Shown here one piece after another: positions 4,867 through 44,726 of a stretch of 44,726 nucleotides of DNA. The stretch is taken from positions 1 through 44,726 of the forward strand of contig CAJCIP010000097.1 in assembly GCA_903970445.1 (NCBI GenBank), read 5' to 3'. Source of the stretch: Verrucomicrobia bacterium Tous-C9LFEB (GTDB taxonomy: Bacteria > Acidobacteriota > Terriglobia > Terriglobales > Acidobacteriaceae). Positions within the stretch are counted from its first letter, which is position 1. Every line of letters begins with the position of its first letter. Position numbers and translations under genes: made by a program. The notes beneath the pieces are model-generated. The model was not told where the DNA came from. It made no database searches and saw nothing but the letters and a program-made list of their open reading frames with translations.

Positions 4867-4872
4867 TATAAA
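4867..4872 (+). promoter_or_regulatory. -10-like TATAAA, candidate leaderless start of the M14 peptidase gene
   Basis: TATAAA lies 5 nt before the ATG at 4878 and no SD is present. A normal -10 to transcription-start distance would place the mRNA start at or next to the ATG. I see no good -35 at 16-18 bp upstream. Confidence 0.45.
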
Positions 4873-4877
4873 ACAGT

Positions 4878-7800
4878 ATGCCCTTCAAATGGTCTGGCCT
4901 TGTTGTCTGCCTGCTTGCGTCAAGCTGTGCGTTTTCGCAAACGCTGAACCACAACTTCGATCGCGATCCATCGCAATTGGTCGATGCTGGCTATACGGCT
5001 GCGATCGCGAAGTACACGACAGATCCCGCATTCCTATCTCCGCTGGTGAACTACCTTCCCGCTTCGAGCACAGTACCAACGCCGAAAGCTGTGCTCGGCG
5101 ATGTGGCCGGCGCGCCTGACATGTTGCCGTATGCGGAAGATGTGTATCGCTACTTTCGGCTGCTTGCGGAGAAGTCACCGCGCGTCCAGGTCACATCCAT
5201 CGGTAAGTCCGAAGAAGGTCGTGAGATGATTGCAGCGGCCATCGCGGACGAATCACTGCTTAAGACGGTCAAGGAAAACGATGCAAGGCTTGCGCAGCTC
5301 AGTGATCCGCGCCTCATTGGGATGAATGATGAGAAGGCGCAGGCGCTGCTCCAGGCAAGCGTTCCGGTCTACTACATCACTGGTACGATCCACTCGCCGG
5401 AAACTGGTGCGCCGACGGCCCTCATGGAGCTGGCTTACAGGCTCGCGGTGGATGACTCGCCCTACATCCAGTACATCCGCAAGCACATGATCGTGCTCAT
5501 TACGCCTGTCGTCGAAGTCGACGGCCGTGACCGCATGGTTGATATCTACAAGTGGCACAAAGCTCATCCCGGCTTGCAGTACCCCCGGCTTCTCTACTGG
5601 GGACACTATGTTGCGCACGACAACAATCGTGACGCCATGGGCATGACGCTTGCGCTCACCAACAATGTGCTAAACACCTATCTCGGCTGGCATGCACAGG
5701 TGCTGCACGATCTGCATGAGTCTGTACCTTTTCTCTATGACAACACTGTCGGGGATGGCCCGTATAACGCCTGGATCGACCCGTTGCTCTCCGACGAATG
5801 GGCTGAGTTGGGTTGGAACAACGTCGCACAGATGCAGGGCTTTGGAATGCCGGGCGTCTTTACACACGGCGACTTTGATACCTGGAGTCCCGGCTATTTG
5901 ATGTTCCTGGCCGGCATGCACAACGGCATCAGCCGCCTCTATGAGACGTTCGGGAACGGAGGTGCTGACACAGAGAAGCGAATCCTGCAGCCGGAAGAAT
6001 ATTCGCGAACCTGGTACCGGCAGAACCCACCTTACCCTGTCGTTACGTGGTCGCAGCGTGACAACAACAACTACGAAGAGAGCGCGCTGCTCAGCACTCT
6101 TTCGTACTTTGCAAACCATGGCCGACACTTTCTTGAGAACTACTACACGAAGAGCAAGCGCAGCATTTTGAAGCCCTCTGTAGAAGGGCCGGCGGCCTAC
6201 GTTCTGCCAGCGAATGAAGCAGAAGGCAACCGTCAGGCGCAACTGATCGAAGTGCTGCAGCGGCAACACGTAGAGATCAGCCGTCTCAACGAAGCTGCTT
6301 CGTTCACATTGCCGGTAAAGCATAAAGCTGACGATGACTCGCCGTCCAAGCCGAAAACCAAAACAGGCATGGATGCGGAAGTAAAACCGCAAGAAGAAAA
6401 GTTCCCCGTAGGCAGCCTTGTTATCCGCATGGATCAACCGTATGCCCGTGCGGCAGATGCCTTACTGGACAAACAATACTGGGCGCCAAACGATCCACAA
6501 AAAACGCCCTATGACGACACCGGCTGGAGCTTCAGTCAACTCTTCAACCTCAAGGTCGTTCGAGTTACAGATGCAGATTTTCTCAAGCATAAGATGACAT
6601 TGATCACCCCAGGCTCGGATCCTGGTTTGGCGGAAGGCTTGCACGGCAAAGGTTCGTTCTTCGCCATCGCAAATACAGGCCAGAGCTCCCTTCTTCCTTT
6701 GATCTTCGCAATGAAGGACGCGCACTTCAGCATTGCGGATGCGAGCTTCGCTGCGGATGGCAAGCAGTTTGCTCCTGGAACGCTTCTGGGGAGTGGAGCG
6801 TCCGAGAGCGACATGGATAGCATTCTCAAGAAGCTTCAACTCAGTGCTGTGCGCCTCGGCTCTGCACCAGCCGTGAAGAGCCACCCTGTCACTCGGCCGA
6901 GGATCGCATTCATGCATACCTGGTTGAGTACGCAGACGGAAGGTTGGTGGCGCTATGCCTTTGACCATGCCGGCATTCCTTACAACTACATCAGCACACA
7001 GACCGTGGCGGCAAGTAACGCGCTGCGTTCGAAATACGATGTCATCGTTTTTGCGCCCGTCGGCTACGCACGTAGTTCGGACATCCTCAACGGCATGCCG
7101 CTGTATGGGAATCCGCTGCCGTGGCAAAAAACCGATCTTACTCCGAATCTAGGGCTCGACTCAACAGCAGATATGCGTCCTGGCCTTGGAAGTTCTGGCC
7201 TGGAGCATCTACAAGCGTTCGTGCAGGACGGCGGACTCTTGATCACCAGCGAGGATACGGCGCGCTTTGCAATCGACATGGGCCTCGCCCCCGGCGTGAG
7301 CGTAACGCTACCCGGAAGTGCCCGTGTCGTTGGCACAGTCCTCAACACGGTGTTTGTGCAGCCGCAAAATGCTATCGCGTATGGCTATAGCAAGGGCACC
7401 GCTGTCATGAGCGCCGACGGTATGTCATTTCAAGTAAGCAATACAACCCGCGGTGGCTCGGGGCGGCGCAAGAGTCCTGAAACCGAGAGACCAACAGGGC
7501 GCGGAACCATCGGTGACGAGGACATCGTGGAAGGACGGAAAGCTGTTGAACCGGTCTCGCTTCCAAGCCCGAAGCCCTGGCAACCGGACCCGCTGAATGA
7601 GGAGCAGATGCGAAATAACCCGTACATCCTCCCAGAGTCTGCGCGTCCTGATGTGATCCTTCGTTTCGCCGATGGCAAAGATCTTCTAGGTTCCGGCCTG
7701 CTCGACAACTCAGGTTCAGTCGCGGAGCACGCAGTTGTTGTGGATGCCCATCTCGGCACGGGTAATGTATTGCTTTTCGCCTGTAATCCTGTTTATCGAG

Positions 7801-7883
7801 GCGAAACGATCGGGAGCTATCCGATGGTGTTCAACGCGATCATGAACTTTGATCACCTGCAGCATGCGGCGATCGCAAAGTAG
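4878..7883 (+). CDS. Secreted M14-family zinc carboxypeptidase-like protein
   Basis: This 1,001-residue protein starts with a signal peptide (hydrophobic core about residues 6-18, CLLASSCAFSQ) and so is exported. The M14 metallopeptidase domain is clear: GKSEEGREM (about 109-117), zinc motif HSPE at His172 and Glu175, HDNNRD at 247-252 (substrate-binding Asn-Arg) and a third ligand within HDLHES near 277-280. The second half (about 560-1,000) has no motif that I know but contains a Rossmann-like or glutamine-amidotransferase-like section (DVIVFAPVGYARSSDIL; LQAFVQDGGLLITSE) and a proline- and charge-rich linker near 860-900. Large M14 proteins of this layout are frequent in Acidobacteria and Bacteroidetes and are thought to digest extracellular peptides. 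It stands alone and converges on exonuclease III with a 16 bp gap. Confidence 0.92.
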   Translation: MPFKWSGLVVCLLASSCAFSQTLNHNFDRDPSQLVDAGYTAAIAKYTTDPAFLSPLVNYLPASSTVPTPKAVLGDVAGAPDMLPYAEDVYRYFRLLAEKSPRVQVTSIGKSEEGREMIAAAIADESLLKTVKENDARLAQLSDPRLIGMNDEKAQALLQASVPVYYITGTIHSPETGAPTALMELAYRLAVDDSPYIQYIRKHMIVLITPVVEVDGRDRMVDIYKWHKAHPGLQYPRLLYWGHYVAHDNNRDAMGMTLALTNNVLNTYLGWHAQVLHDLHESVPFLYDNTVGDGPYNAWIDPLLSDEWAELGWNNVAQMQGFGMPGVFTHGDFDTWSPGYLMFLAGMHNGISRLYETFGNGGADTEKRILQPEEYSRTWYRQNPPYPVVTWSQRDNNNYEESALLSTLSYFANHGRHFLENYYTKSKRSILKPSVEGPAAYVLPANEAEGNRQAQLIEVLQRQHVEISRLNEAASFTLPVKHKADDDSPSKPKTKTGMDAEVKPQEEKFPVGSLVIRMDQPYARAADALLDKQYWAPNDPQKTPYDDTGWSFSQLFNLKVVRVTDADFLKHKMTLITPGSDPGLAEGLHGKGSFFAIANTGQSSLLPLIFAMKDAHFSIADASFAADGKQFAPGTLLGSGASESDMDSILKKLQLSAVRLGSAPAVKSHPVTRPRIAFMHTWLSTQTEGWWRYAFDHAGIPYNYISTQTVAASNALRSKYDVIVFAPVGYARSSDILNGMPLYGNPLPWQKTDLTPNLGLDSTADMRPGLGSSGLEHLQAFVQDGGLLITSEDTARFAIDMGLAPGVSVTLPGSARVVGTVLNTVFVQPQNAIAYGYSKGTAVMSADGMSFQVSNTTRGGSGRRKSPETERPTGRGTIGDEDIVEGRKAVEPVSLPSPKPWQPDPLNEEQMRNNPYILPESARPDVILRFADGKDLLGSGLLDNSGSVAEHAVVVDAHLGTGNVLLFACNPVYRGETIGSYPMVFNAIMNFDHLQHAAIAK

Positions 7884-7899
7884 CCGTCAGCAGACGCAT

Positions 7900-8664
7900 T
7901 TACGATAGTTCCAGGATGATCGGTGCGTGATCCGACGGGCGCTGTTGGGAGCGCGGCGTCTTGTCGATCGCACAGCTTTGCAGCCGGGACGCGAGCGATG
8001 GCGACAACAGAAAGTGATCAATTCGTATGCCCCGGTTTGTTTCGAACGCATTGCGAAAGTAGTCCCAATAGGTAAACTGACCCGTTTCATTCGGGTGCAA
8101 GAAACGAAATGCATCTTTGTAACCCAAGCCGAGCATGGCTCTGTATCGCTCCCGTGGCTCTGGCTGAAACAGCGCATCACGCATCCATGATGCAGGCTTG
8201 TGGCAGTCGATGTCCTCCGGAATGACATTGAAGTCGCCTCCTATGACGGTCGGCACACCATCGTTCAGCCAAGAGGTTAGCTGTAGGCTAAGCCGGTCCA
8301 TCCAAGCGAGCTTGTAATCGAACTTCGGCGTGCCGACAGGATTGCCGTTGGGCAGGTAAATGTTGACGACCCGCAGGCTTTCGATAGTTGTTTCGAGAAA
8401 TCTGGCGTGACTATCCTCCTCATCTCCGGCAAGCGTTATGTTTATTGTTTCGATGGAGTGCCGCGAGAGTGTCGCCACGCCGTTGTAGGTTTTCTGTGTC
8501 ACAGCCGCGCTGCTGTACCCGATGGCTTCAAACGCTTCAGCTGGAAAGTCCGTTGTTTTTAGTTCCTGCAACAAAAGAACATCAGGATTGTGCTCCTTCA
8601 ACCAGCTAGTCACCAGGTCCAAGCGCGCTTTGATGGAGTTCACGTTCCAGCTTGCAATCTTCAT
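7900..8664 (-). CDS. xth: Exodeoxyribonuclease III (AP endonuclease)
   Basis: This is a 254-residue full-length member of the ExoIII/APE1 family. Motifs in order: MKIASWNVNSIKARL at the N-terminus, LLLQELK with the metal-binding Glu near residue 34, YNGVATLSR, IGGDFNVIPEDID near residue 142 with the catalytic Asp/Asn, and SDHAPIILEL at the C-terminus with the catalytic His. It cuts DNA at abasic sites and degrades 3' ends in base-excision repair. GGGAG 7 nt upstream of the ATG at 8664 supports the start. It is a single gene with a long upstream region shared with the divergent NHL/Ig gene. Confidence 0.96.
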   Translation of the reverse strand: MKIASWNVNSIKARLDLVTSWLKEHNPDVLLLQELKTTDFPAEAFEAIGYSSAAVTQKTYNGVATLSRHSIETINITLAGDEEDSHARFLETTIESLRVVNIYLPNGNPVGTPKFDYKLAWMDRLSLQLTSWLNDGVPTVIGGDFNVIPEDIDCHKPASWMRDALFQPEPRERYRAMLGLGYKDAFRFLHPNETGQFTYWDYFRNAFETNRGIRIDHFLLSPSLASRLQSCAIDKTPRSQQRPSDHAPIILELS

Positions 8665-9014
8665 GTATTTCTCCCTGGCAACAAACTTCCGAAGTCATCT
8701 AGATCCAAGGAACTCAAGTCGTCTAGTACTTCCGTGTCATAGCAGAACGATCTCCGAGAATCGATATGCAGCGTTGACCTGTAGTCACGTGGCATAACTA
8801 TTGGGTCATCAATATGTTGGCATGTAAGAGGCCTCGCGCGGCCGCGTCTTTGGTCACCTTACTCCAGTGCAGAACCTTACAACTTTCGCAGAAGAGGTCA
8901 CCGCACGGTGGAGTAGTAACGGCTTGATGGTTACGTTACGGTCATCTTCGGAGACCGATCACCTTGGGCTTTTCCTCGCGCATTTCCCTAAATCACTCAC
9001 GCTCCTCTGCCTCT
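8665..9014. other. 350 bp divergent intergenic region
   Basis: This region separates xth (-) from the giant NHL/Ig gene (+). It holds a direct repeat near the xth end (8692-8726) and a poor promoter-like pair, TTGACC at 8774-8779 with only weak -10 candidates (TAACTA or ACTATT) near 8795-8802. GGTCACC occurs twice (about 8851 and 8898). No ORF with believable codon use and no RNA gene was seen. Confidence 0.4.
8692..8726. repeat. Direct repeat AAGTC(A/G)TCTAG upstream of xth
   Basis: AAGTCATCTAG at 8692-8702 is followed by AAGTCGTCTAG at 8716-8726, so 10 of 11 bases match and the copies start 24 bp apart. The pair lies 28-62 bp upstream of the xth start codon, a position where a repressor or activator could bind. 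Functional meaning is inferred only. Confidence 0.4.
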
Positions 9015-14426: not shown

Positions 14427-14434
14427 GGAGAAAC

Positions 14435-15025: not shown

Positions 15026-15080
15026 CATCCTCGATCACCGGCTAAGACGGACATCAGCCAAGACTCCCCCTACCAGACCC

Positions 15081-15095
15081 CGAACGCTAAGTTCG
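15081..15095. terminator. Weak hairpin after the barrel protein gene
   Basis: CGAAC and GTTCG form a perfect 5 bp stem with a 5-base loop, flanked by CCC and CGGG that could extend it imperfectly. No T-run follows, so a terminator role is doubtful. Confidence 0.25.
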
Positions 15096-15266: not shown

Positions 15267-15272
15267 TACAAT
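15267..15272 (+). promoter_or_regulatory. -10-like TACAAT, candidate leaderless start of the CysJ-like gene
   Basis: TACAAT ends 9 nt before the ATG at 15282, and the intervening bases contain no SD. Transcription starting about 8 nt after the -10 would give a leaderless mRNA. The same hexamer is found before three other genes here. Confidence 0.55.
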
Positions 15273-15281
15273 GTTTAGATA

Positions 15282-16466
15282 ATGAGTGATTCATCGGTGG
15301 CGACCCCGCCTACCCCCACAAAGCCGCACGCAACCAAGTACACGCGCAATCAGCCCTACATCTCCCGAGTTCTGACAAACGACCGGCTTACCGGGCCTGA
15401 GTCGGAAAAAGAGACGCTTCATATTGAGCTGGATCTCGAAGATGGAATGATCTATACGCCCGGCGACGCCGTAGGCATTATTCCTACCAACCGCGAACAG
15501 CAGGTGGAAGAGAATCTGTCCGCACTTGGGTTCAATGGCACCGAACGCGTCCTGGACCACTACAAAGTTGAGATTTCTCTGCACGAAGCACTTACTACGC
15601 GTCTTGGGATCGGCAAGCTCGCACGTGGCAGTCTCAATCAGTACGCGAAGCTCTTTGGGGAAAATGTTCCTGAAGGCCTCAAGAAGCTGCAAGGGCAGGA
15701 GAACAAGGCAATCGCCGAGGAATACGTTTGGGGTCGCGAGTTCGTCGACTTGGTAAAAGAGTTTCCTGGTGCAGTGACTGATCCGCAGCAGCTTTTCAAC
15801 GTGCTGCAGCGCCTGACGCCGCGGATGTATTCCATCGCAAGCAGCCAGGCCGCGCACCCAAACGAGGTGCACACAACAGTCCGCGTGGTTCGCTACAACG
15901 CACATGGCGCCGAGCGCCAGGGCGTGTGCTCCGGCCACATGGGCGAACGCGCTCCGGTCGATGCTTCTTTGCCGATCTTCTTGCACGAAAACAATGCGTT
16001 CCGTCTGCCGGAAGACACTGACGCACCGGTCATTATGATCGGTCCCGGCACAGGCATTGCGCCTTTCCGTGCGTTCCTCGAGCATCGACAGGCGCTCGGC
16101 GAGAAAGGCCCGATGTGGCTCTTCTTCGGTGAGCAGCGTCGCGTGTCAGATTTTCTGTACGAGCAGCAATTCGCTCGCATGCAAGCCGAAGGCGTACTTA
16201 CCAAGTTGGACACCGCATTTTCTCGCGATCAGGGCAAGAAGGTGTACGTCCAGGACCGGATGCAAGAGAATGCTTCCGAGCTATACGACTGGCTCGAACG
16301 CGGCGCTTACTTTTACGTCTGCGGCGATGCCAGCCGCATGGCAAAGGATGTGGAAACGGCGCTGCTTGACGTCATAGCCAGGGGTTCGAACGGCACGCTG
16401 GAGCACGCGAGCGAATATCTCGCTGCGATGAAGAAGGCCAAGCGGTACCAGCGCGACGTCTACTAG
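15282..16466 (+). CDS. CysJ-like NADPH flavoprotein reductase without flavodoxin domain
   Basis: This 394-residue protein has the FAD- and NADP-binding halves of sulfite reductase alpha subunit / cytochrome P450 reductase. It starts with LTGPESEKETLHIELDLE and YTPGDAVGIIP, then the helical connecting domain, the FAD motif RMYSIASS (about residue 185), GVCSGHMGE, the pyrophosphate motif GPGTGIAPFRAFLEHR (about 251-266), FFGEQRR, FSRDQGKKVYVQ, YVCGDASRMAKDV and a C-terminal aromatic residue (RDVY). Full CysJ has an N-terminal FMN flavodoxin domain of about 200 residues, which is absent. It therefore should pass electrons from NADPH through FAD to a separate FMN or iron-sulfur partner, possibly sulfite reductase. 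No partner gene lies next to it. Confidence 0.9.
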   Translation: MSDSSVATPPTPTKPHATKYTRNQPYISRVLTNDRLTGPESEKETLHIELDLEDGMIYTPGDAVGIIPTNREQQVEENLSALGFNGTERVLDHYKVEISLHEALTTRLGIGKLARGSLNQYAKLFGENVPEGLKKLQGQENKAIAEEYVWGREFVDLVKEFPGAVTDPQQLFNVLQRLTPRMYSIASSQAAHPNEVHTTVRVVRYNAHGAERQGVCSGHMGERAPVDASLPIFLHENNAFRLPEDTDAPVIMIGPGTGIAPFRAFLEHRQALGEKGPMWLFFGEQRRVSDFLYEQQFARMQAEGVLTKLDTAFSRDQGKKVYVQDRMQENASELYDWLERGAYFYVCGDASRMAKDVETALLDVIARGSNGTLEHASEYLAAMKKAKRYQRDVY

Positions 16467-16683: not shown

Positions 16684-18030
16684 CTAGGCTAACGAGCGAA
16701 GGCGTGCGACGGCAGTAGGAATGATCTCGAGGACTCGATCGATTTCTGCCGGCGTTGTGAATCTCGTTAAAGACAGGCGCAGACTGCTGCGTGCTTCCAT
16801 GGGTGTCAGACCCATTGCGAGAAGGACATGTGACGGTTCTGTCGCACCGGACATACAAGCGGCACCGAAGCTGGCAGCAATGCCATGCAGATCCAACGCG
16901 ATGAGAAGCGCTTCAGCGTCGACACCGCTAAAGCGAATATTGGTGGTGTTCGGAACACGCGGCACTTGGCACGCATTGATGTAGGCATTGGGGATTGTGG
17001 CGAGAAGGCCTTGCTCCAGGCGGTCGCGAAGTACCTGGAGCGTGCGTGGGTTGCTGCTTGCTGATTCGAAGTTCACTCGCTCGCGCTTGGCGCTTGCTTC
17101 GGCAAAGACGGAGATCCTTCGACTGCGCGCATCCGGCGCTTGCTCAGGATGAAGGCTTGATGCGTGTTCGGTTGAGACGACAGATTCGTGAGGGTGGACT
17201 TCGGTCGAGACCGCTGACGTGACAAGATTGGCTGTGTTCACAGTGCAGAGCCAGGTATTCGCTAGGTCAGCGGCTTTGCCAAGCGCGACGATGCCTGGGA
17301 CGTTCTCTGTTCCGGCGCGGCGCTGGCGCTCGTGTGGGCCTCCGTAGAAGAGCGGCGCGAGTGTCACACCCTTGCGGACGAACAAAACTCCGGTACCCTG
17401 AGGTGCATACATCTTGTGACCGGAGATCGTGAGCAGGTTGACGTTTGTTAGCTCGCCCGAAAGATCGAGAAGCACTTTGCCGGCCCCCTGCACGGCGTCG
17501 GTGTGCAGAAGCACGTGATGCTGCTCGGCGATACGCGCGATGTCGCCTATCGGCTGAATCGCGCCTGTTTCGTTGTTCGCGAGCATGATGGAAACGAGCT
17601 TTGTGTGCGGCTTCAGTGCAGCTTCGACTGTTGCCGGGTCGATGACTCCGTCGCGCGTGGGCGCAACGTACGTGACCTCAACGCCACGGCGCTCCAGAGC
17701 TTCAGCGGCATAGAGGACGGCATGATGCTCGATGCGAGAGGTGATGAGGTGGGCCTGCTCTTTGCGATCCAGGAACGGCTGAAGAATGCCGGAAAGCGCA
17801 AGGTTGTTTCCTTCGGTACCGCCTGAGGTAAAAACGATCTCTTTCGGTGTGCAAGTGAGCAAAGCGGCGACAGAAGCTCGCGCGTGCTCTACCGCCGAGC
17901 GTGTGCGCTGACCGGACTGATGCGCAGAACTGGGATTGCCAAAACTATCCGACCAGAACGGGTACATGGCTTCGATAACCTTCGGGAGCACCGGCGTTGT
18001 GGCGTTCGCGTCGAGGTAGATGCGCTGCAT
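16684..18030 (-). CDS. Cysteine desulfurase (NifS/IscS type) with in-frame insert
   Basis: This PLP enzyme takes sulfur from cysteine for iron-sulfur clusters and thio-modifications. Landmarks are YLDANATTP at the N-terminus, FTSGGTEGNN (about 67-76), HTDAVQ, the PLP lysine in SGHKMYAP (Lys206), RRAGTENVPGIVALGKAA (238-254) and the catalytic loop FGAACMSGATEPSHVL (Cys392). The protein has 448 residues from ATG 18030, about 67 more than the family norm. The excess lies between LANTW (256-260) and PRTLQVLRDRL (328 on) and has a composition unlike the rest, with Ser, Glu, Arg and His in a low-complexity mix. The frame is open upstream to 18267, but homology begins at 18030, and a TACAAT 6 nt upstream supports that start. 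Confidence 0.92.
   Translation of the reverse strand: MQRIYLDANATTPVLPKVIEAMYPFWSDSFGNPSSAHQSGQRTRSAVEHARASVAALLTCTPKEIVFTSGGTEGNNLALSGILQPFLDRKEQAHLITSRIEHHAVLYAAEALERRGVEVTYVAPTRDGVIDPATVEAALKPHTKLVSIMLANNETGAIQPIGDIARIAEQHHVLLHTDAVQGAGKVLLDLSGELTNVNLLTISGHKMYAPQGTGVLFVRKGVTLAPLFYGGPHERQRRAGTENVPGIVALGKAADLANTWLCTVNTANLVTSAVSTEVHPHESVVSTEHASSLHPEQAPDARSRRISVFAEASAKRERVNFESASSNPRTLQVLRDRLEQGLLATIPNAYINACQVPRVPNTTNIRFSGVDAEALLIALDLHGIAASFGAACMSGATEPSHVLLAMGLTPMEARSSLRLSLTRFTTPAEIDRVLEIIPTAVARLRSLA
17050..17250 (-). repeat. Repeat-like 201 bp insert inside the cysteine desulfurase gene
   Basis: The segment codes residues 261-327, which have no place in the NifS fold. Its core at 17111-17155 on the + strand begins GAGATCCTTCGACTG and ends GCTCAGGATGAAGG, with ATCCT and AGGAT as inverted ends and a GC-rich centre. 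That wording matches, from memory, the short dispersed palindromic repeats seen between genes in Acidobacteria and other phyla. Here one is read through in frame. Repeat identity needs a genome search. Confidence 0.55.
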
Positions 18031-18036
18031 AAATTC

Positions 18037-18042
18037 ATTGTA
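18037..18042 (-). promoter_or_regulatory. -10-like TACAAT, candidate leaderless start of cysteine desulfurase
   Basis: On the minus strand TACAAT is followed by 6 bases and the ATG at 18030. No SD is present. It picks out exactly the start codon expected from family alignment, which supports both calls. Confidence 0.55.
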
Positions 18043-20080: not shown

Positions 20081-21049
20081 TTATCGACTAGGTTGTGCGG
20101 TTCGTTGCTGATAGCGTGTGGCTCGGAAGGGCGCGATGTCGATCCGCGGTTGGCGGCCTTCGATCAGGTCGGCTATGACTTTTGCTGTACCTGGCGCGAG
20201 CAGGATCCCGTTGCGGAAGTGCCCTGTCGCGACAAGTTCGCGCTCGTTGACGCGGGCTAGAGTCGGAAGATTATCAGGCGTGCCGGGCCTCAGGCCTGCC
20301 CAGGCTTCCACGATAGGAGCGTCTGAGAGGAAGCGAAGGTCGCCTGTGAGATCGGCGGCTGCTGCTCTGAGTTGAACTAAATGTTCCGCGTGCGTGGTAA
20401 GGTCGAAGCCGACGTCTTCGACAGTCGCGCCGATAAGAGCGGTGCCTGCCTGCGGGCCTTGGGTGCGAGGAACGATGTAGACGTGCTCGGCGCGATGGAC
20501 CTCGGTGAGAGTGGAAGCCCGAGGTAGCTCTACGCGCAACATTTGGCCTTTGCGTGGAGAGACGTTGTAGTGTTTGGCCCATGCTCCAGTGGTCCAAACG
20601 ACTTGCGCCCTCGTTGGTAGAACTTCGACTTGTTCGTGTTCACGAATGTCGATAGACAGAGCCTTTGCCGCCGCCAGTAAGGCGGGCGCGAGCTGGCGGG
20701 GGTCAATGGAAGACTCGACTAGTCGTGTGCCGACACCACGCGCGTCATACTGGTTGGTGATTCTCGTCTGATAAGGAACTGGCATCCCGCCGAGCCGCTC
20801 TATTCGTTGCAGAAATTCCGTATAGACACTAACGCTGAATTGCGCCAATTCCTGAAGGTCCGGCGGATTGTACGGATCGTGCACGGCGAGCATGCCAGCA
20901 GCGGCGCCCGATGCGTGAGAAAGTGCCGTATCCCGGTCTACAACCGTGACTCGTGCTCCACGTGCGTCAAGTTCCAGAGCGAGGGAAAGTCCTATAATCC
21001 CGGCACCGATGATAAGTATTTCGGCTTGCGGCAGCGCGGGAGAGCTCAT
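20081..21049 (-). CDS. thiO: FAD-dependent amino-acid oxidase, glycine oxidase ThiO-like
   Basis: The product has an N-terminal dinucleotide-binding motif (ILIIGAGIIGLSLALELDARGARVTVVDRD), the DAO-family segment SGAAAGMLAVHDPYNPP, and C-terminal motifs EAWAGLRPGTPDNLPTLA and GHFRNGILLAPGTAKVIADLI that close the FAD site. ThiO oxidises glycine to the imine used for the thiazole ring of thiamine. The motifs fit glycine oxidase best among D-amino-acid oxidases, but no thi genes are adjacent, so another amine substrate is possible. Two start codons lie close together (21055 and 21049). I chose 21049 because TAAAAT ends 9 nt before it and no SD exists. Confidence 0.85.
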   Translation of the reverse strand: MSSPALPQAEILIIGAGIIGLSLALELDARGARVTVVDRDTALSHASGAAAGMLAVHDPYNPPDLQELAQFSVSVYTEFLQRIERLGGMPVPYQTRITNQYDARGVGTRLVESSIDPRQLAPALLAAAKALSIDIREHEQVEVLPTRAQVVWTTGAWAKHYNVSPRKGQMLRVELPRASTLTEVHRAEHVYIVPRTQGPQAGTALIGATVEDVGFDLTTHAEHLVQLRAAAADLTGDLRFLSDAPIVEAWAGLRPGTPDNLPTLARVNERELVATGHFRNGILLAPGTAKVIADLIEGRQPRIDIAPFRATRYQQRTAQPSR

Positions 21050-21058
21050 TGGCATCCC

Positions 21059-21064
21059 ATTTTA
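21059..21064 (-). promoter_or_regulatory. -10-like TAAAAT, candidate leaderless start of thiO
   Basis: TAAAAT is 9 nt before the ATG at 21049 and only 3 nt before the alternative at 21055. CACTAAAA is repeated 22 bp upstream, and no -35 consensus is visible. Confidence 0.45.
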
Positions 21065-22710: not shown

Positions 22711-22716
22711 AGAATA
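22711..22716 (-). promoter_or_regulatory. -10-like TATTCT before the 22704 start
   Basis: TATTCT is 6 nt before the ATG with no SD between. It lies in the 34 bp gap after polX, so it would be an internal promoter of that transcription unit. Confidence 0.35.
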
Positions 22717-25273: not shown

Positions 25274-25279
25274 GACCGT

Positions 25280-25285
25280 ACGGTA
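25280..25285 (-). promoter_or_regulatory. -10-like TACCGT in a palindrome before the Nudix gene
   Basis: TACCGT ends 6 nt before the ATG at 25273 without an SD. It overlaps a perfect 10 bp palindrome ACCGTACGGT (25275-25284), which could be an operator. Confidence 0.3.
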
Positions 25286-27726: not shown

Positions 27727-27732
27727 TAAACT
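27727..27732 (+). promoter_or_regulatory. -10-like TAAACT before the ABC-F gene
   Basis: TAAACT ends 8 nt before the ATG at 27741 and no convincing SD is present. Confidence 0.35.
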
Positions 27733-30056: not shown

Positions 30057-30062
30057 TAGACT
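30057..30062 (+). promoter_or_regulatory. -10-like TAGACT before lnt
   Basis: TAGACT ends 8 nt before the ATG at 30071. The same hexamer lies 9 nt before the SpoU methyltransferase start at 34215. No SD precedes 30071. Confidence 0.35.
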
Positions 30063-34199: not shown

Positions 34200-34205
34200 T
34201 AGACT
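34200..34205 (+). promoter_or_regulatory. -10-like TAGACT before the SpoU methyltransferase
   Basis: TAGACT ends 9 nt before the ATG at 34215 and no SD is visible in between. Confidence 0.4.
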
Positions 34206-37015: not shown

Positions 37016-37094
37016 GAGTTTTCTCCTGTGCTGCAGAATATGACGCGAAACAAGAGGTTCGCGTCGACGAGGTGGTTTCGAAAGTCGCAACGCC

Positions 37095-39215
37095 CTAGTT
37101 CTTTGGGGAATCTTTCTGGATCGCTTGTAACACCGTGTCCTTCGTTAGCAGCTCGGGTAGGACGTCGGCGGTTGATTTCTCGCCTGCCGGATAGATGACA
37201 TAGGTTGGTACGCCGCTTCTACCAACGGAGGCAAGTTCCTGCGTGATTGCCGGATCGTACTGCGTCCAGTCGGCCTTGAGCAGGACGAAGTCCTTCGTGA
37301 TGAAGGTTGACTCGATTTCAGCGGAGTGCAGAACTGCACGTTCGTTCACCTGGCAGCTTAGGCACCATGCGGCGGTGAAATCGATGAAGACAGGCTTGCC
37401 GGACGCACGTGCGGCTTCAAAGCTCGCTGCGGTATAGGGCTGCCACTGTGTCTTCGCTGCTCGAACACGGATCAACGGGAGAGCGACAGCGAAGATGATC
37501 AGCAGGGTAGCGACGATGCCTGCGGTCAGGCGGGCGGGCCAGCGTCCAAGCACCCATCCTGCAATGGCAAGCACGAGGAAGCAAATAAGGAGCGAGACCA
37601 TGCGGTCGACGCCGTCGTTGCCATAGAGACGTGCGTAGACCCACACGAGCCAGATGGCGGTGGCGAAGAGCGGCACGGCTGTGAGCTGCTTCAGCACCTC
37701 CATCCACGCGCCGGGTTTGGGGAGGATGCTTGTCCATTGTGGATTGAGTGTGAGCAGGAGATAGGGCAGGGCGAGGCCGAGAGCTAGTGCGGTGAATACG
37801 AGGAAGGTGAGAATGACCGGCTGCGCCAGAGCAAAGCCAACGGCCGCGCCCATAAACGGGCCCATACATGGCGTAGCAACGACGGTCGCGAGGATTCCCG
37901 TGAAGAAACTTCCAGCGTAGCCTTGCTTGTTGGCGAGACTGCCTCCGGCGCTGGTGAGTGAGAGGCCGAGCTCAAACTGCCCGGCAAGCGAGAGGCCAAG
38001 GAAGAAGAGGAACGCGGCGAGGACAGCGACAAATCCGGGAGATTGGAGCTGGAAGCCCCACCCAAGCTGTCTGCCGCCCGCTCGGAGTGCAAGGAGCACC
38101 GCAACGACAGCCCAGAACGAGACGATGATGCCGAGCGTGTAGATGAGTCCGTGGAGTCGCTGGCGCTTCTGCTGCTCGCCTGAAGAATGGACGAGCGCGA
38201 GACCTTTCAGAAATAGCACAGGGAAAACGCAGGGCATCAAGTTGAGGATGATGCCGCCAAAGAACGCGAGTGTCAGCGCGCTAATCAGCGTGAGGCCTTT
38301 GGTTTCGCTTCCAGGAGCCGGTTTCACCTGTACGGGTGCTGGAGGAACCTGGCCTGGTGTGACGCTTGCAGTGAGTTCGTAGTTCTCCCCTCCGCCGAGC
38401 TCGACGAGGCCATGAAGTGACTTTGGCAGAGCGGTGGAATCGGAAGCACGTTGCAGCCAAACGCGCACACCGTCAGCTTGAGGCTGAACCGCCTGATCTG
38501 ATGCATTCTCGATCTGCTCGCCGTCGAAGGGGTAGAACTCAACGTCCTCTTCGCGGCCTCCGGTTCGCACGGTGAGCAGGATCTGCTTGGCATCACCGAT
38601 AGCGGTGGCACTCATGTTTGCGGGCAACGGCTTGGGGATGCTTGTGATTCCCTGGCCCAGCGCTCCAATCACGGGCGGGGCAGGCACAGGGCCGTTCACG
38701 ACGTCGATATCGATGCCAAGATGCGCTTTGCCGGGCAGGCAGGTGTCAGCGCACACCAGCCATGAAACGTGCGCATCCAGATGGGCTTTACCCGGCTTTG
38801 TGTTGGGTGCGGCGGTCAGCTCGACGGGGAACGCCACCTGGTCTTCGTAGCCGTAATCCATGAGCGGGCCGAGTGGCAGACGCTGCGGCGGCGGGAACTG
38901 CATTGGCGCGGCGGTAATACCTGCCGGTAGAGTCCACTTGATCTTCGGTGGCTCGCCGGAATCGCCTGCGTTGATCCAGTACACGTGCCAGTGCTCTTCG
39001 ATGGTGAGCACCAGGCCCGCCTGGAGGTGTCCACCTGCGGATATCTGAGGACCGAGGGTGGTGAGTTCTGCCGTCAGGTGTTGCGCCTTCACCGGCCCTG
39101 GGCCGCCGTCGCCGACCTCTACTATCTGGGCGCGCGCGGGAACGCCAGCGAGGAGCAGCGTGCAGGCTAGGGCGTAGCAGAGGCTCGAAATGCGAGAAAG
39201 GCGTTGCTGCGTCAT
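37095..39215 (-). CDS. dsbD: DsbD-family thiol:disulfide interchange protein
   Basis: This 706-residue protein (from ATG 39215) passes electrons from cytosolic thioredoxin across the membrane. It has a signal peptide (ISSLCYALACTLLLAG, ending PARAQ), an N-terminal periplasmic DsbC/D-like domain with WLVCADTCLPG, about eight membrane helices (ISALTLAFFGGIILNLMPCVFPVL; TGILATVVATPCMGPFMGAAVG with the two redox cysteines) and a C-terminal thioredoxin domain with FTAAWCLSCQVNE (CLSC). The open frame extends to 39278. I chose 39215 because it begins the signal peptide and TACAAT lies 7 nt before it. An AG-rich stretch at 39292-39297 could argue for 39278. Pairs with the redoxin. Confidence 0.92.
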   Translation of the reverse strand: MTQQRLSRISSLCYALACTLLLAGVPARAQIVEVGDGGPGPVKAQHLTAELTTLGPQISAGGHLQAGLVLTIEEHWHVYWINAGDSGEPPKIKWTLPAGITAAPMQFPPPQRLPLGPLMDYGYEDQVAFPVELTAAPNTKPGKAHLDAHVSWLVCADTCLPGKAHLGIDIDVVNGPVPAPPVIGALGQGITSIPKPLPANMSATAIGDAKQILLTVRTGGREEDVEFYPFDGEQIENASDQAVQPQADGVRVWLQRASDSTALPKSLHGLVELGGGENYELTASVTPGQVPPAPVQVKPAPGSETKGLTLISALTLAFFGGIILNLMPCVFPVLFLKGLALVHSSGEQQKRQRLHGLIYTLGIIVSFWAVVAVLLALRAGGRQLGWGFQLQSPGFVAVLAAFLFFLGLSLAGQFELGLSLTSAGGSLANKQGYAGSFFTGILATVVATPCMGPFMGAAVGFALAQPVILTFLVFTALALGLALPYLLLTLNPQWTSILPKPGAWMEVLKQLTAVPLFATAIWLVWVYARLYGNDGVDRMVSLLICFLVLAIAGWVLGRWPARLTAGIVATLLIIFAVALPLIRVRAAKTQWQPYTAASFEAARASGKPVFIDFTAAWCLSCQVNERAVLHSAEIESTFITKDFVLLKADWTQYDPAITQELASVGRSGVPTYVIYPAGEKSTADVLPELLTKDTVLQAIQKDSPKN

Positions 39216-39222
39216 CGGTTTC

Positions 39223-39228
39223 ATTGTA
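39223..39228 (-). promoter_or_regulatory. -10-like TACAAT, candidate leaderless start of the DsbD gene
   Basis: TACAAT is followed by 7 bases and then ATG 39215, which directly starts a good signal peptide. No SD is found for this codon. Confidence 0.55.
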
Positions 39229-39376
39229 GAAGTGGCAAGCCGCATCCTGCTTTCTGTGTTCTTCAATGCCATCTTCATCTCGCTACACCCCCCTCCCGTA
39301 CTTAGGTCCTAAAGTCTTGAGCGGATTGGGTTTAGGTTCGTGCTAAGTCCAAAGTTTGCACCATAGAAACACGAAA

Positions 39377-39394
39377 GCCCGGCCGGAGCCGGGC
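39377..39394 (-). terminator. Rho-independent-like hairpin after the CoA-binding gene
   Basis: GCCCGGC and GCCGGGC make a perfect 7 bp stem with a 4-base loop. On the minus strand it is followed by TTTCGTGTTT. It lies 35 bp after the end of the CoA-binding gene and upstream of dsbD, so it would insulate the two. Confidence 0.7.
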
Positions 39395-39428
39395 GACTTT
39401 CTCTACTGATCTTAGTCTATCGCGCGTG

Positions 39429-39854: not shown

Positions 39855-39872
39855 GGCGCACCCCCGCTCATT

Positions 39873-39878
39873 TACAAT
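39873..39878 (+). promoter_or_regulatory. -10-like TACAAT upstream of the lipoprotein gene
   Basis: TACAAT lies 28 nt before ATG 39907, too far for leaderless translation. It is therefore an ordinary promoter candidate with a short leader. Confidence 0.4.
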
Positions 39879-39906
39879 CAGACGCAGAACATTCGCAAAA
39901 AGCGGC

Positions 39907-41421: not shown

Positions 41422-41630
41422 GAGCGGCTTCCGTTTTGGCGCTCAGACCTGGGCTGTGGCCTAGCATCGTATGAGCCGGCCTTTAGCCGTAAGTGCGGCA
41501 CGCCTGCTGCATGTTGTGGCGCTTCGCCAAACAGCAGATCCTCCCGTTGCGCGGAAGGATGACAAGCCAAATAGAACTGGCATCCGCAACGAGAGACCAG
41601 ACCCTCAGGCCCTGACTTGCGGAGCGCGGT
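41422..41630. other. Intergenic region between converging genes
   Basis: About 210 bp with no believable ORF. No strong terminator hairpin was found by eye. Confidence 0.3.
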
Positions 41631-42452
41631 TTATGCGCCGGTCATGATGATGGGTAGAGTTGGCTGCTTGGCTCCTGCTTCATCTTCGATGGTGACGCCG
41701 AAGCCCGATGCTGCAATGCCTTTAGGAAGGTTTGGCATGAGCACATTGGCATTGCCGCTGGCGTCCGGTTTGAACAGGCCTGCGGCGATCGGTTCGTGGC
41801 CGTTCGCAGGAATTAACCAGAGCTCATAGGTTTTATAGGCCTGGAGCGGCTGTAGATTGGAAGCAAAGAACACTAAAGCGCCCGTATCGGCGCGATAGGC
41901 GGCGTGAGCTTCCGGAGTCTTCTGAGCTTCAGTGGCTGATGCCAGGTGAATGCCAACCTGTTTCGCGCGAGAGTCGGTGAGTGTCTGCAGTACGTCCTGC
42001 GCACGGGCGGATTGCCCTATTTGCCGCTGCTGTGCTTCCAGCAGGTTGTCACTATGCTGGCGCTCTGCGAACTGCAACACGGCAACCGCGGCCATGCCAG
42101 CAGCAACGGCCCACCCTGCCCACTGGATGACGCGTGAACGCCGGGTGGGGACCAGGTGGATGTCGCTATTGCTAAAATTCTGACCTGCGGCAGCCGCGCC
42201 ATGACGTGCTGTCATCTGCTTCTTATCAAGAGCGATGCGGCGAAGCAGGCGTTCGCGGCCATAGGCGGGTGGTGTGTGCTGTTCGACTCCCCAGGCGTAG
42301 GCGGCGAGGTCACCTTGCAGCCGACCCAGCTCATCGCGGCACTCGGGGCAGTCCGCGAGATGTTTTTGAGCTTGCGGCAACTCGGCTTCCGGCAGAAACT
42401 GCAGCGCCAGCAGGATCAGATCATCGGTGGTGATGTGAGTGTCAGTGCTCAT
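41631..42452 (-). CDS. RskA-like anti-sigma factor
   Basis: This 273-residue protein begins with a zinc anti-sigma domain (KHLADCPECRDEL, the H-x3-C-x2-C motif at about residues 31-38), then one membrane helix (about 111-127, WAGWAVAAGMAAVAVLQF) and an exported RskA C-terminal domain (YELWLIPANGHEPIAAGLFKPDASG; VTIEDEAGAKQPTLPIIMTGA). It should hold the ECF sigma factor at the membrane until an outside signal triggers its cleavage. The start ATG overlaps the sigma stop in an ATGA, so both are made in fixed ratio. The GxAxSxE-type end matches RskA proteins from Actinobacteria and Acidobacteria. Confidence 0.92.
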   Translation of the reverse strand: MSTDTHITTDDLILLALQFLPEAELPQAQKHLADCPECRDELGRLQGDLAAYAWGVEQHTPPAYGRERLLRRIALDKKQMTARHGAAAAGQNFSNSDIHLVPTRRSRVIQWAGWAVAAGMAAVAVLQFAERQHSDNLLEAQQRQIGQSARAQDVLQTLTDSRAKQVGIHLASATEAQKTPEAHAAYRADTGALVFFASNLQPLQAYKTYELWLIPANGHEPIAAGLFKPDASGNANVLMPNLPKGIAASGFGVTIEDEAGAKQPTLPIIMTGA

Positions 42453-43018
42453 GCCCGGAATGCCTTTCTCAGCGTGCTCAGCGCGCTGCGGATGCGTGTC
42501 TTTACGGTGCCCAAGGGATCGCCTGTCATTTCGGCGATCTCCGAGTGTGTTAAACCATCAAAAAACGCCATTTCGAGCGTTTTTCGCTGTTCGAGAGGAA
42601 GTGTTGCAATGATGCCGCGTGCCTGCTCGGCCATCAAGTTCCTCTCCGTTTCCTTCGACAGGTCACAGTTTGAAGGAAGTGACATCTCCTCCGCCTGATC
42701 TGTCGGTTTCTTACGGCGCAGCGAATCAATCGAACGGTTTCGCGAGACTACCGCCAGCCATCCGCCCAGACTTCCTTTGGTAGCTAGAAATCCACCCGGG
42801 CTGCGCCAGATTTGGAGAAAGACCTCTTGCAGAATGTCCTCCGCCGCTGACGCGTCGCGCAGTACCCGCAACGAAACCGAATACACCACCTTGGAATAAC
42901 GGTCGTACAACAAGGCCATCGCTGCATCGTCGCCACGACTAACGCGAGCTAACAGATCCGTGTCGCTCTCCAGGGCCTCGAATGCCGGGCCGTTCGGTAC
43001 AACGTCCTTTCTATCCAT
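42449..43018 (-). CDS. ECF RNA polymerase sigma factor (SigK-like)
   Basis: This 189-residue sigma factor has region 2 (LLYDRYSKVVYSVSLRVLRDASAAEDILQEVFLQIW and WLAVVSRNRSIDSLRR, about 37-103) and region 4 (LPLEQRKTLEMAFFDGLTHSEIAEMTG and GTVKTRIRSALSTLRK, about 140-185), with no region 3 or 1.1. The pairing with an RskA-type anti-sigma puts it in the SigK/SigL-like ECF group. GGAAG 7 nt before the ATG at 43018 supports the start. Upstream at 43065-43095 there are three GTGA repeats with a 12 bp period that may be part of its control region. The regulon cannot be read from this window. Confidence 0.94.
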   Translation of the reverse strand: MDRKDVVPNGPAFEALESDTDLLARVSRGDDAAMALLYDRYSKVVYSVSLRVLRDASAAEDILQEVFLQIWRSPGGFLATKGSLGGWLAVVSRNRSIDSLRRKKPTDQAEEMSLPSNCDLSKETERNLMAEQARGIIATLPLEQRKTLEMAFFDGLTHSEIAEMTGDPLGTVKTRIRSALSTLRKAFRA

Positions 43019-43064
43019 AGAACGCTTCCAGACCGGAAACAGATTGCCCCGAATTAGCTTGAAC

Positions 43065-43095
43065 GTGATTCATTTAGTGACCCGCTGCGTGACCC
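43065..43095. promoter_or_regulatory. Three phased GTGA repeats between ECF sigma and tlyA
   Basis: GTGATTC at 43065, GTGACCC at 43077 and GTGACCC at 43089 are exactly 12 bp apart. They lie 47-77 bp upstream of the sigma start, a fitting place for an operator. The binding factor is unknown. Confidence 0.45.
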
Positions 43096-43169
43096 ACAGT
43101 GTACGGCAAATACATTACCTCCGTGCGGGGGCGACATTTACTCTGACGATGGCGAGAAGGTATCAGACC

Positions 43170-43934
43170 GTGAAGCTCAGGCTCGACAAATTGCTTGTAG
43201 AACGAGGCCTCGTCGCCTCGCGAGAGCGCGCTCAGGCGCTGATACTTGCCGGGCGAGTGCTTGTGGACGAGCAGCGGATGGAAAAGCCAGGCACGGCGAT
43301 CCCGGAAGAATCATCGGTTCGGTTGCTGGGCGAGGAATTGCGCTATGTCAGCCGCGGCGGACTGAAGCTGGAGCACGCGCTTACGGTGTGGAAGATCGAT
43401 GTTCAGGAGGCCCACTGCGCCGACATCGGGGCATCAACGGGGGGCTTCACAGATTGCATGCTCCAGCACGGAGCCAGGAGCGTGTTGGCGGTGGACACGG
43501 GCTATGGGCAGATCGCGCATAAGCTGCGAGTCGACTCGCGGGTGACGCTCATGGAGCGTACGAATGCGAGGCTGTTGGCGCCTGGTTCGTTGGCAGCGAT
43601 GGCCGCCGGGAGTGTCTCGTTCTTCTGTATGGACGTAAGCTTTATTTCCGCGACACTCGTCCTTTCCGCTGTCATCGCAGGTCTTTCTGCTCCAGGCGAA
43701 CACTGGCAAGGTGATGCCGTTGTGCTGATCAAGCCGCAGTTCGAGGCCGGACGAGAGAACATTGGCAAGGGCGGCATCGTGCGAGATCCCGCGGCCCGGC
43801 AATTCGCTGTGGATCGTGTCGTCGATGCCGTGAAGGTGCTCAAGGGTGATGTGGTTGAAGTGATGGATTCGCCCATCCTTGGCATGGAAGGTAACCGCGA
43901 ATACCTTACGCACGTGAGATTCGGGCCAAGGTAG
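43170..43934 (+). CDS. tlyA: TlyA-family rRNA 2'-O-methyltransferase / hemolysin A homologue
   Basis: This 254-residue protein has an N-terminal S4 RNA-binding domain (LRLDKLLVERGLVASRERAQALILAGRVLVD) and an FtsJ-like Rossmann methyltransferase domain: ADIGASTGGFTDCMLQHGA (about 81-99), VLAVDTGYGQIA, MDVSFISATLVL, LIKPQFEAGRENIGKGGIV. TlyA methylates riboses of 16S and 23S rRNA in Mycobacterium. The hemolysin name is historical. I chose GTG 43170, because AGAAGG lies 9 nt upstream and the family starts close to KxRLDKLL. ATG 43149 would add seven residues. nadK starts 14 bp after its stop, a common neighbour pair. Confidence 0.92.
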   Translation: MKLRLDKLLVERGLVASRERAQALILAGRVLVDEQRMEKPGTAIPEESSVRLLGEELRYVSRGGLKLEHALTVWKIDVQEAHCADIGASTGGFTDCMLQHGARSVLAVDTGYGQIAHKLRVDSRVTLMERTNARLLAPGSLAAMAAGSVSFFCMDVSFISATLVLSAVIAGLSAPGEHWQGDAVVLIKPQFEAGRENIGKGGIVRDPAARQFAVDRVVDAVKVLKGDVVEVMDSPILGMEGNREYLTHVRFGPR

Positions 43935-43935
43935 T

Positions 43936-43941
43936 TACAAT
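43936..43941 (+). promoter_or_regulatory. -10-like TACAAT, candidate leaderless start of nadK
   Basis: TACAAT starts two bases after the tlyA stop and ends 7 nt before the nadK ATG. No SD precedes the ATG. If used, nadK has its own promoter inside the operon. Confidence 0.5.
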
Positions 43942-43948
43942 CCAACAC

Positions 43949-44726
43949 ATGCCAAAGGCCGCGATTATTTCCAAGCCGCTCAAGCGGGAGCTGCGGCAGA
44001 TTCTGCTCGATTTAGTGACGTGGCTTGAGACGCATGGCTTTGAGGCGCTGCTCGACCCTGACACGGCGAATTATCTCGATCGCCCGGCAGATGCGCTGGA
44101 ACGCCGTGAGATGGCCGCGCAGGATCCAGCGATCGTGATTTCATTGGGCGGTGATGGGACACTGCTTTCTGCCGCTAGAGCCTTTGCGAAGACTGACATT
44201 CCGATCCTCGGGGTGAATCTGGGCTGGCTCGGATTCCTGACGGAGATTCCCCTGGCGGAAATGTATGACGCGCTCGAGGCATGGCTGGCGGGAAAAGGAA
44301 TCATTGATTCGCGCAGCCTGATGTGTGCGGAACTTTTCCGAAACGGCAAGTGCTTTCGCCACTGGGATGCGCTGAACGACGTGGTGCTGGCCAAGGGAGC
44401 GATCGCGCGGATGGGTGAGTTCACCGTTGCGCTGGATGGCCAGTTTGTCGCGAAGTTCCGGGCGGATGGCGTGATCGTATCGACGCCGACTGGTTCCACG
44501 GCGTACACGCTGGCGGCAAACGGGCCAATTCTGATGCCGAGCGTGGACGCCATGGTGCTGACGGCGATCTGTCCGCACCTGCTTACCATCCGCCCGATTG
44601 TGTTCCCAGGTAGTTCCGAGATCAGCGTGGAAGTGGATGTTGTGCCCCACGAGACCTATCTGACGGTGGACGGCCAGGAGGCGGTGGAGCTGCTGTTGGG
44701 TGACCGTATTGTGTGTAAGCGATCGG
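43949..44726 (+). CDS. nadK: NAD kinase, 3' end cut by window edge
   Basis: The 259 visible residues run from ATG 43949 with no stop before the window ends. The family is secure: VISLGGDGTLLSAARAF (about 64-80, the GGDG ATP/NAD site), GVNLGWLGFLTE, LNDVVLAKG (the NE/ND motif), FRADGVIVSTPTGSTAYTLAANGPI (about 168-192) and a beta-strand C-terminal region (TIRPIVFPGSSEISVEV; TYLTVDGQE). The enzyme phosphorylates NAD to NADP using ATP or polyphosphate. Typical proteins have 280-300 residues, so about 25-40 residues lie outside. It is missed by simple ORF callers because it lacks a stop. Confidence 0.96.
   Translation, partial: MPKAAIISKPLKRELRQILLDLVTWLETHGFEALLDPDTANYLDRPADALERREMAAQDPAIVISLGGDGTLLSAARAFAKTDIPILGVNLGWLGFLTEIPLAEMYDALEAWLAGKGIIDSRSLMCAELFRNGKCFRHWDALNDVVLAKGAIARMGEFTVALDGQFVAKFRADGVIVSTPTGSTAYTLAANGPILMPSVDAMVLTAICPHLLTIRPIVFPGSSEISVEVDVVPHETYLTVDGQEAVELLLGDRIVCKRS

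Follow-up and report, generated by a model that had tools for sequence, protein, structure and literature searches.

Eleven genes in a 44,726-nt contig of an Acidobacteriaceae genome begin 5 to 9 nt downstream of a hexamer resembling a promoter -10 element and are very probably transcribed as leaderless or near-leaderless mRNAs, the -10 element setting the start of transcription at the start codon itself or at most about 4 nt from it. The window, by which we mean the whole of this contig (positions 1 to 44,726), is a complete contig of a 3.68-Mb draft genome close to Granulicella, with a G+C content of 57%. Neither an Rfam scan of the window at gathering scores nor a tRNA search of it returned a match, and no 16S rRNA gene was found in the draft genome; the 16S loci of 6 of 10 relatives show a CCTCC tail, the other four giving no pattern match on the given strand, the only one scanned.

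On re-reading the sequence, all 11 hexamers lie at the positions and before the starts given in the original prediction. Four are TACAAT: at 15267..15272 (+), before an FAD/NAD-binding oxidoreductase (Pfam) starting at 15282 (gap 9 nt, first T at -15); at 18037..18042 (-), before a cysteine desulfurase (aminotransferase class V) starting at 18030 (6 nt, -12); at 39223..39228 (-), before a protein starting at 39215 and named DsbD-like in that prediction (7 nt, -13); and at 43936..43941 (+), before an NAD kinase that starts at 43949 and reaches the contig end at 44726 (7 nt, -13). TAGACT occurs twice, at 30057..30062 (+) before apolipoprotein N-acyltransferase (Lnt; start 30071, 8 nt, -14) and at 34200..34205 (+) before a SpoU rRNA methylase (start 34215, 9 nt, -15). 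The remaining hexamers are TAAAAT at 21059..21064 (-) before an FAD-dependent oxidoreductase of the DAO family (start 21049, 9 nt, -15), with an additional ATG at 21055 between hexamer and start; TATTCT at 22711..22716 (-) before a protein that matches no Pfam family at E 1e-6 (start 22704, 6 nt, -12); TACCGT at 25280..25285 (-) before a NUDIX protein (start 25273, 6 nt, -12); TAAACT at 27727..27732 (+) before an ABC-ATPase (start 27741, 8 nt, -14); and TATAAA at 4867..4872 (+) before an M14-type carboxypeptidase (PF00246; start 4878, 5 nt, -11), which is not a TANNNT because it ends in A. These genes had been described as lacking a Shine-Dalgarno (SD) site, and 10 of the 11 starts indeed have no SD core (GGAG, AGGA or GAGG) in the preceding 22 nt; the exception, 22704, has GGAG at -19, 5' of its hexamer, and at the usual distance an SD core is missing from all 11.

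Four TACAAT hexamers had been judged unlikely by chance, and the judgment holds as a post hoc one: TACAAT occurs twice in the 36,740 positions lying upstream of 668 genes, so that about 0.01 would be expected in a 5-position window at the 38 genes counted in the original prediction (binomial P(>=4) ~4e-10). Four of the eight copies of TACAAT in the window (both strands) stand at these starts. TANNNT is found at 10 of the 38 genes against 1.4 expected (P ~1e-6); these P values, too, are post hoc because motif and search window were chosen after the data had been seen, and the fair test is therefore provided by genes outside the window. Of the 637 genes there, 55 have a TANNNT whose first T falls at -14 to -12 (background 15.0), and 4 have TACAAT at -15 to -12 (background 0.1). 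Over the whole genome, the count called for by the original prediction yields a peak at -14 to -12, comprising 59 of the 668 genes where 15.9 would be expected. SD-less genes hold this peak (51/447 vs 10.4; genes with an SD, 8/221 vs 5.5), and it recurs in two further Acidobacteriaceae sets, a congener, G007 (29/296 vs 8.8), and 80 related loci (117/1070 vs 29.1); E. coli, handled alike, has none (4/215 vs 11.1). Genes with fewer than 80 nt upstream, containing N or with identical upstream sequence were left out of the counts. The signal exceeded all of its controls, which were motifs at decoy distances, motifs with permuted letters and E. coli. The decoy-corrected excess amounts to 6.8-10.3% of genes; the matrix used for it was trained on the 80 loci together with G007 and is thus independent of this genome, not of G007. 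General A/T richness was ruled out as a source by position and by the permuted motifs: ATNNNT, TTNNNA and AANNNT have no peak there, and TNANNT stays at 17 per 1000 at -14 and -12, compared with 24-34 for TANNNT.

As expected, genes with this signal (TA-led genes) head transcription units: in the three sets pooled, a same-strand gene lies within 20 nt upstream of 8 of 182 TA-led genes versus 116 of 759 SD genes (P 3e-5), a result that holds in the pool and not in G007 alone (4/24 vs 10/124). In the same pool, TTG start codons are rarer among TA-led genes (2/182 vs 108/1852, Fisher P 0.003).

The hexamers are also retained among orthologs. Rows were dropped if they fell under an identity floor set for each gene, aligned only past residue 40, had too little upstream DNA, were identical or came from the genome of the window itself; for ten of the genes, a near -10 (TANNNT at -16 to -11) then precedes 173 of 251 ortholog rows, and 86 of the 259 rows of all 11 genes lack one. 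At -15 to -11, 160 of the 259 rows have TANNNT, whereas the background counts for windows of equal size sum to about 14.5, a comparison that does not amount to 259 independent trials because the rows are related. A near -10 is present in every row for the ABC-ATPase (16/16, 4 with an SD-like tetramer in addition) and Lnt (22/22), and in 25/26 for 15282, 21/23 for NAD kinase (mostly TACACT), 18/22 for the DsbD-like protein (largely TTCTACAAT or CTCTACAAT), 9/11 for 22704, 15/23 for 21049 (SD alone in 3, neither in 5), 14/23 for SpoU (neither signal in 9), 7/15 for the cysteine desulfurase and 26/70 for NUDIX (SD in 23, neither in 21); carboxypeptidase orthologs have TANNNT in 0/8 and TATA[AT]A at -13 to -11 in 6/8. 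Since an SD-like tetramer (-16 to -6) accompanies the near -10 in 23 of those 173 rows, 15282 accounting for 11, some leaders may be short and not absent. In alignments of ten genes (4878 left out; hexamer columns 1, 2 and 6 fixed by selection of the rows), upstream conservation spans about 9 nt on average: mean column identity is 0.60, 0.75 and 0.86 at the three hexamer positions free of that selection, 0.46-0.51 at -3 to -1 before the hexamer and 0.24-0.31 from -45 to -7.

No -35 element had been evident at the few sites inspected for the original prediction, and identity in the -35 region is at background on average in the 10 alignable gene families. TTG showed no enrichment or peak in the -35 region of 182 pooled genes, and a TTGACA-like -35 some 17 bp upstream of the -10, as in sigma-70 promoters, was not found. 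A scan for -35/-10 pairs with spacers of 16-18 gave 0 among TA-led genes; among the remaining genes it gave 3, 1 and 2 for the respective sets. It is without power because it produces no peak in E. coli either. Odd single-gene columns occur near -35, for example with identities of 0.42 and 0.50 at -20 and -19 for 22704 (9 rows). The Lnt hexamer has TGC directly 5', an extended -10, and its orthologs conserve TGN (identity 0.91 at positions -3 and -2 relative to the hexamer). In the pool, TGn precedes 23 of 182 hexamers against 10.9 expected, and G is enriched two bases before the hexamer (0.45 vs 0.27); T three bases before is not (0.19 vs 0.22), leaving the extended -10 unsupported as a general rule. 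The G is not special to leaderless genes, since the -10-like sites of other genes share its enrichment (0.49 in this genome, 0.56 in G007).

These observations are best read as leaderless or near-leaderless mRNA, and the original claim of probable leaderless mRNAs draws support from ortholog conservation and from a genome-wide peak that neither SD genes nor E. coli show. From the position, abundance and conservation of the hexamers, the absence of SD sites and the absence of -35 conservation, we infer both the transcription start and leaderless translation. Each hexamer would be a promoter -10 lying so near its gene that RNA polymerase begins at the codon or no more than about 4 nt away; an SD site would then not fit into the mRNA, leaving the ribosome to recognise the 5'-terminal AUG or GUG directly. 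Promoters in this lineage would read TANA[C/A]T, frequently with a G two bases earlier and without a recognisable -35, and any of the genes may have an additional promoter upstream.

How close transcription begins to the codon bears on a variant nested within this reading, in which the -10 is real but many genes start a few bases upstream, giving mini-leaders of 2-8 nt and leaderless-like initiation. The usual spacing from -10 to transcription start is 6-7 nt, and the pooled peak of the first T at -12 (37) and -13 (24), with only 3 at -11, would by this spacing put the start at the codon. However, SD-less first genes also include 14 at -15 and 8 at -16, the hexamer of 15282 orthologs lies at -15 in 14 and at -16 in 8 of 26 rows, their commonest state, and that of NAD kinase orthologs lies at -15 in 12 of 23. 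We consider mini-leaders in a large share of these genes unlikely, if worth keeping in mind; because a hexamer at -15 or -16 (as in 15282, 34215 and the orthologs of 43949) would leave a leader of 3-4 nt, near-leaderless is the safer wording.

Ordinary promoters with normal leaders would result if some true starts lay elsewhere in the gene. Gene starts were computed by a motif-blind caller, which agreed with the listed annotated starts in 29 of 39 calls on one E. coli stretch. It reproduced 7 of the 11 predicted starts and preferred 15297, 18081 and 30053 for three others, scoring the predicted starts 0.9-1.8 nats lower; the start at 43949, in the gene that runs off the contig, was uncalled. 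Ortholog starts are scattered for 21049 (offset 0 in 2/23 rows) and 25273 (12/70), but the start coincides with the aligned first residue in 16/16 rows for 27741, 22/22 for 30071, 23/23 for 43949, 21/23 for 34215 and 13/15 for 18030, which makes misplaced starts a very improbable explanation.

Translational enhancers that are AU-rich or bind S1 are discussed for bacteria with few SD sites, Bacteroidetes among them, and the hexamer might be such an element (an S1 site or unstructured AU enhancer) within a longer leader. Genes without an SD would suit such a role, but the signal is a spaced TANNNT for which permuted motifs are weak or flat, prefers C at position 5 (0.52-0.55) and is missing from SD genes, and we think this highly implausible. 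Chance, reader bias or TA from the stop codons of upstream genes, for which one could cite the free choice of hexamers and the inclusion of 4878 outside TANNNT, retains almost no probability given the excess outside the window, the ortholog conservation, the lack of signal in E. coli and the equal enrichment of TA[CT]NNT (32 vs 8.6) and TA[AG]NNT (27 vs 7.4).

Two families bear on how leaders change. Among the cysteine desulfurase orthologs, the 8 without a near -10 have an SD, and 7 of these have TA[CG]AAT at -30 to -27; in this family and in NUDIX, relatives have a similar -10 some 9-25 nt further upstream with an SD in between, suggesting that leaders are gained or lost by small indels (the strict patterns for the far -10 were defined after inspection of the rows). 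NUDIX leader states cluster on a BshC tree, drawn from the midpoint and with 31 of 81 rows without a label. One of the two NUDIX state changes is in Terracidiphilus (L093), where the hexamer looks unrelated by eye. A broader proposal, which we put forward tentatively and with slightly more doubt than belief, is that in Acidobacteriaceae a cassette of about 18 nt, built from some 3 nt, the TANA[C/A]T hexamer, a discriminator of 6-9 nt and ATG, with no need of a -35, might be the entire promoter and the entire translation start for roughly one gene in ten, its variant inherited gene by gene (for example TGNTAGACT, Lnt) and interconverting with SD-led initiation by an indel of 9-25 nt between -10 and ATG, as in the cases seen. 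Leaders would then fall into two length classes, one of 0-4 nt and one of about 14 nt or longer, and lengths in between would be avoided.

Leaderless messages are an established bacterial strategy, and mycobacterial leaderless promoters are not known to carry a -35. The comparative evidence goes beyond motif counts in suggesting that, in a soil phylum, certain genes inherit leaderless initiation as a trait. Gene-calling programs that do not model leaderless starts can misplace them, as with the 3 of 11 moved here. NUDIX and cysteine desulfurase, in which both states occur and the -10 is similar, provide natural pairs in which to study leader gain and loss and their effects on translation. A literature search, judged mostly by titles and the openings of abstracts, found no 5'-end map for Acidobacteria, and the part of PMC10783764 consulted has nothing on leaderless genes in this phylum. 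Such genes were already predicted there: according to the portion of Zheng 2011 (PMC3160421) drawn on here, TANNNT about 12 bp before start codons exceeded shuffled expectation and was interpreted as leaderless, with the signal in 3/3 Acidobacteria genomes (mean 13.3% of genes, 9.7-19.4) and with Actinobacteria and Deinococcus as groups rich in leaderless genes. Relative to the TA-led genes described in that portion, the motif is the same, and 10 of the 11 sites here have the first T at -15 to -12 (4878 does not); 10 of 11 likewise have no SD, the eleventh having its SD core upstream of the hexamer. Our decoy-corrected excess of 6.8-10.3% compares with their 9.7-19.4% for Acidobacteria, and we add a Granulicella-like genome and its relatives, footprints in orthologs, a test of whether the -35 region is conserved, and examples of changed leaders. 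With extended -10 (TGn) promoters, those described here share the missing -35 and the enriched G, but T three bases before is not enriched. With the leaderless promoters of Actinobacteria and Deinococcus, as far as that portion describes them, they share a TANNNT-type -10 adjoining the start codon, but they belong to another phylum, at 57% G+C, and read TANA[C/A]T with C preferred at position 5.

Each of the 11 -10-like hexamers that the original prediction placed at the head of leaderless mRNAs was found at its start, 5-9 nt ahead of the codon, and the claim that these starts are free of a Shine-Dalgarno (SD) sequence also holds, with an SD core between hexamer and codon in 0/11. The pattern TANNNT fits 10 of the 11, the exception being TATAAA at 4878 (M14-type carboxypeptidase), and a motif-blind gene caller ranked 3 of these 11 starts second. 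The window spans all 44,726 bases of contig C97 in a draft genome of 133 contigs and 3.68 Mb, and among the best 80 of 382 loci, the BshC nearest to its own is that of Granulicella mallensis (72%).

We counted the motif in a sample of ~26% of the genome, calling genes by a three-periodic Markov model without any upstream motif. The first T of TANNNT falls at each position from -30 to -15 in 4-13 per 1000 genes, rising to 24 at -14, 30 at -13 and 34 at -12. The genome-wide peak expected of leaderless genes is thus present: TANNNT occurs at -14 to -12 in 59 of 668 genes, against a background of 15.9 (sd 3.7) from windows of the same width placed from about -60 to -19. The corresponding figures are 51/447 (background 10.4) for SD-less genes, 8/221 (5.5) for genes with an SD, 55/637 (15.0) for genes outside the window, 29/296 (8.8) for the congener genome G007 and 117/1070 (29.1) for 80 related loci, and the same treatment of E. 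coli K-12 yielded no excess at these positions (4/215 vs 11.1). Scoring by a weight matrix derived from G007 and the 80 loci, with decoy distances as control and at three thresholds and three start tolerances, puts the excess at 6.8-10.3% of genes in this genome, at 6.9-9.2% in G007 (which is not independent of the training set), and at zero or less in E. coli. Gene starts were computed, the caller agreeing with annotation for 29/39 in one E. coli stretch.

The element is also conserved in position. Among 259 orthologs of the 11 genes, with starts chosen as closest to the aligned position and without regard to motif, 160 carry TANNNT at -15 to -11, where background windows of the same width sum to about 14.5. 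Widening this to -16 to -11, the motif precedes orthologs of the genes at 15282 (oxidoreductase, 25/26), 18030 (cysteine desulfurase, 7/15), 21049 (DAO family, 15/23), 22704 (no Pfam family, 9/11), 25273 (NUDIX, 26/70), 27741 (ABC-ATPase, 16/16), 30071 (Lnt, 22/22), 34215 (SpoU, 14/23), 39215 (DsbD-like, 18/22), 43949 (NAD kinase, 21/23) and 4878 (0/8); it is missing from 86/259, and 23 of the 173 with a near -10 also have an SD-like tetramer. The odd member at 4878 is conserved as well, in a form ending in A: TATA[AT]A lies at -13 to -11 in 6/8 orthologs and in at most one in the other windows tested. Several orthologs of 15282 (window 15267-15282) resemble TACAATAAAAGGAACATG, in which an SD-like AAGGA separates the -10 from ATG and would fall at the 5' end expected for the mRNA or 5' of it. 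Another contig of this draft genome (G000:C48:31101-31661) holds a second, partial NAD kinase copy, 86% identical to that at 43949 over residues 73-259; either it is a paralog or, possibly, the contig has strayed in from a related strain.

That no -35 is evident was borne out in two ways. In hexamer-aligned upstream DNA of 10 genes, mean identity is random except for ~3 nt 5' of the hexamer and shows nothing over the -35 region, a few single columns being higher in single genes; and TTG does not peak at the -35 distance among 182 pooled SD-less motif genes. In these 182 the hexamer has the consensus TANA[C/A]T, with A at 0.58 in position 4 and C at 0.52 and A at 0.30 in position 5, and a G is enriched two bases 5' (0.45 vs 0.27), as it also is 5' of -10-like sites in other genes of this genome and G007. 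Their start codons are ATG (146), GTG (34) and TTG (2); TTG starts 108/1852 of the remaining genes. Across the 979 first genes that lack an SD, TANA[AC]T occurs 3, 37, 24, 14, 14 and 8 times at -11, -12, -13, -14, -15 and -16, respectively, and the genes with a hexamer at -15 or -16 probably have a leader of 3-4 nt. Across 528 SD first genes, it occurs 7 times at -15 to -11, 3 at -25 to -16, 33 at -40 to -26 and 23 over the 30 positions -70 to -41. This spacing points to two classes of leader, one close to zero and one of about 14-28 nt, but the SD counts are small.

Some orthologs appear to have changed leader while keeping the promoter. Cysteine desulfurase has an SD and no near -10 in 8/15 orthologs, 7 of which carry TAGAAT or TACAAT 5' of the SD at -30 to -27 (0 in an equally long control stretch); in the orthologs predicted to be leaderless the hexamer is mostly at -12. 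For the NUDIX gene, members of the Granulicella/Edaphobacter/Terriglobus clade have a TGATACCGTAG-like sequence, a few nt and ATG or, as in the window, GTGTACCGTACGGTC 5' of ATG, and relatives such as L079 retain GGTACCGTAGG followed by an SD leader. Among the 23 NUDIX orthologs that have an SD but lack a near -10, a TACCGT-like hexamer lies at -37 to -21 in 12 (control 0) and the other 11 have not kept it; 21/70 have neither near -10 nor SD. The far hexamers of both genes correspond to a shift of about 9-25 nt. Mapped for labelled sequences only on a BshC tree of 81, the leader states require 2 changes for NUDIX (50 labelled; shuffled mean 16.8), 4 for cysteine desulfurase (15 labelled) and 3 for the 21049 family (18 labelled), in which 0/3 SD orthologs have a shifted -10.

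At window 21049-21064, TAAAAT is followed by two ATGs six bases apart, and in many distant orthologs the start codon lies another 15 nt downstream and the hexamer at -12 or -13, which makes 21049 a candidate start. The 10-bp palindrome ACCGTACGGT (window 25275-25284) overlaps the NUDIX -10, is mostly kept in some close relatives (e.g., L031 and L033) and not in others, and may represent an operator or have arisen by chance. L052, a public contig whose title names Rhodanobacteraceae (Pseudomonadota), is placed with Granulicella by the BshC tree and has a NUDIX promoter of the same, apparently leaderless kind; it is probably mislabelled or mis-binned.

The titles and abstracts of a part of the literature yielded no report of mapped leaderless mRNA in Acidobacteria. 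In the portion of Zheng et al. (2011, PMC3160421) available to us, we found neither the footprint lacking a -35 nor leader changes with the promoter kept. That portion does place TANNNT about 12 bp before the starts of leaderless genes and gives a leaderless signal in 3/3 Acidobacteria genomes, at 9.7-19.4% of genes, so that promoters of this kind were already known from the phylum.
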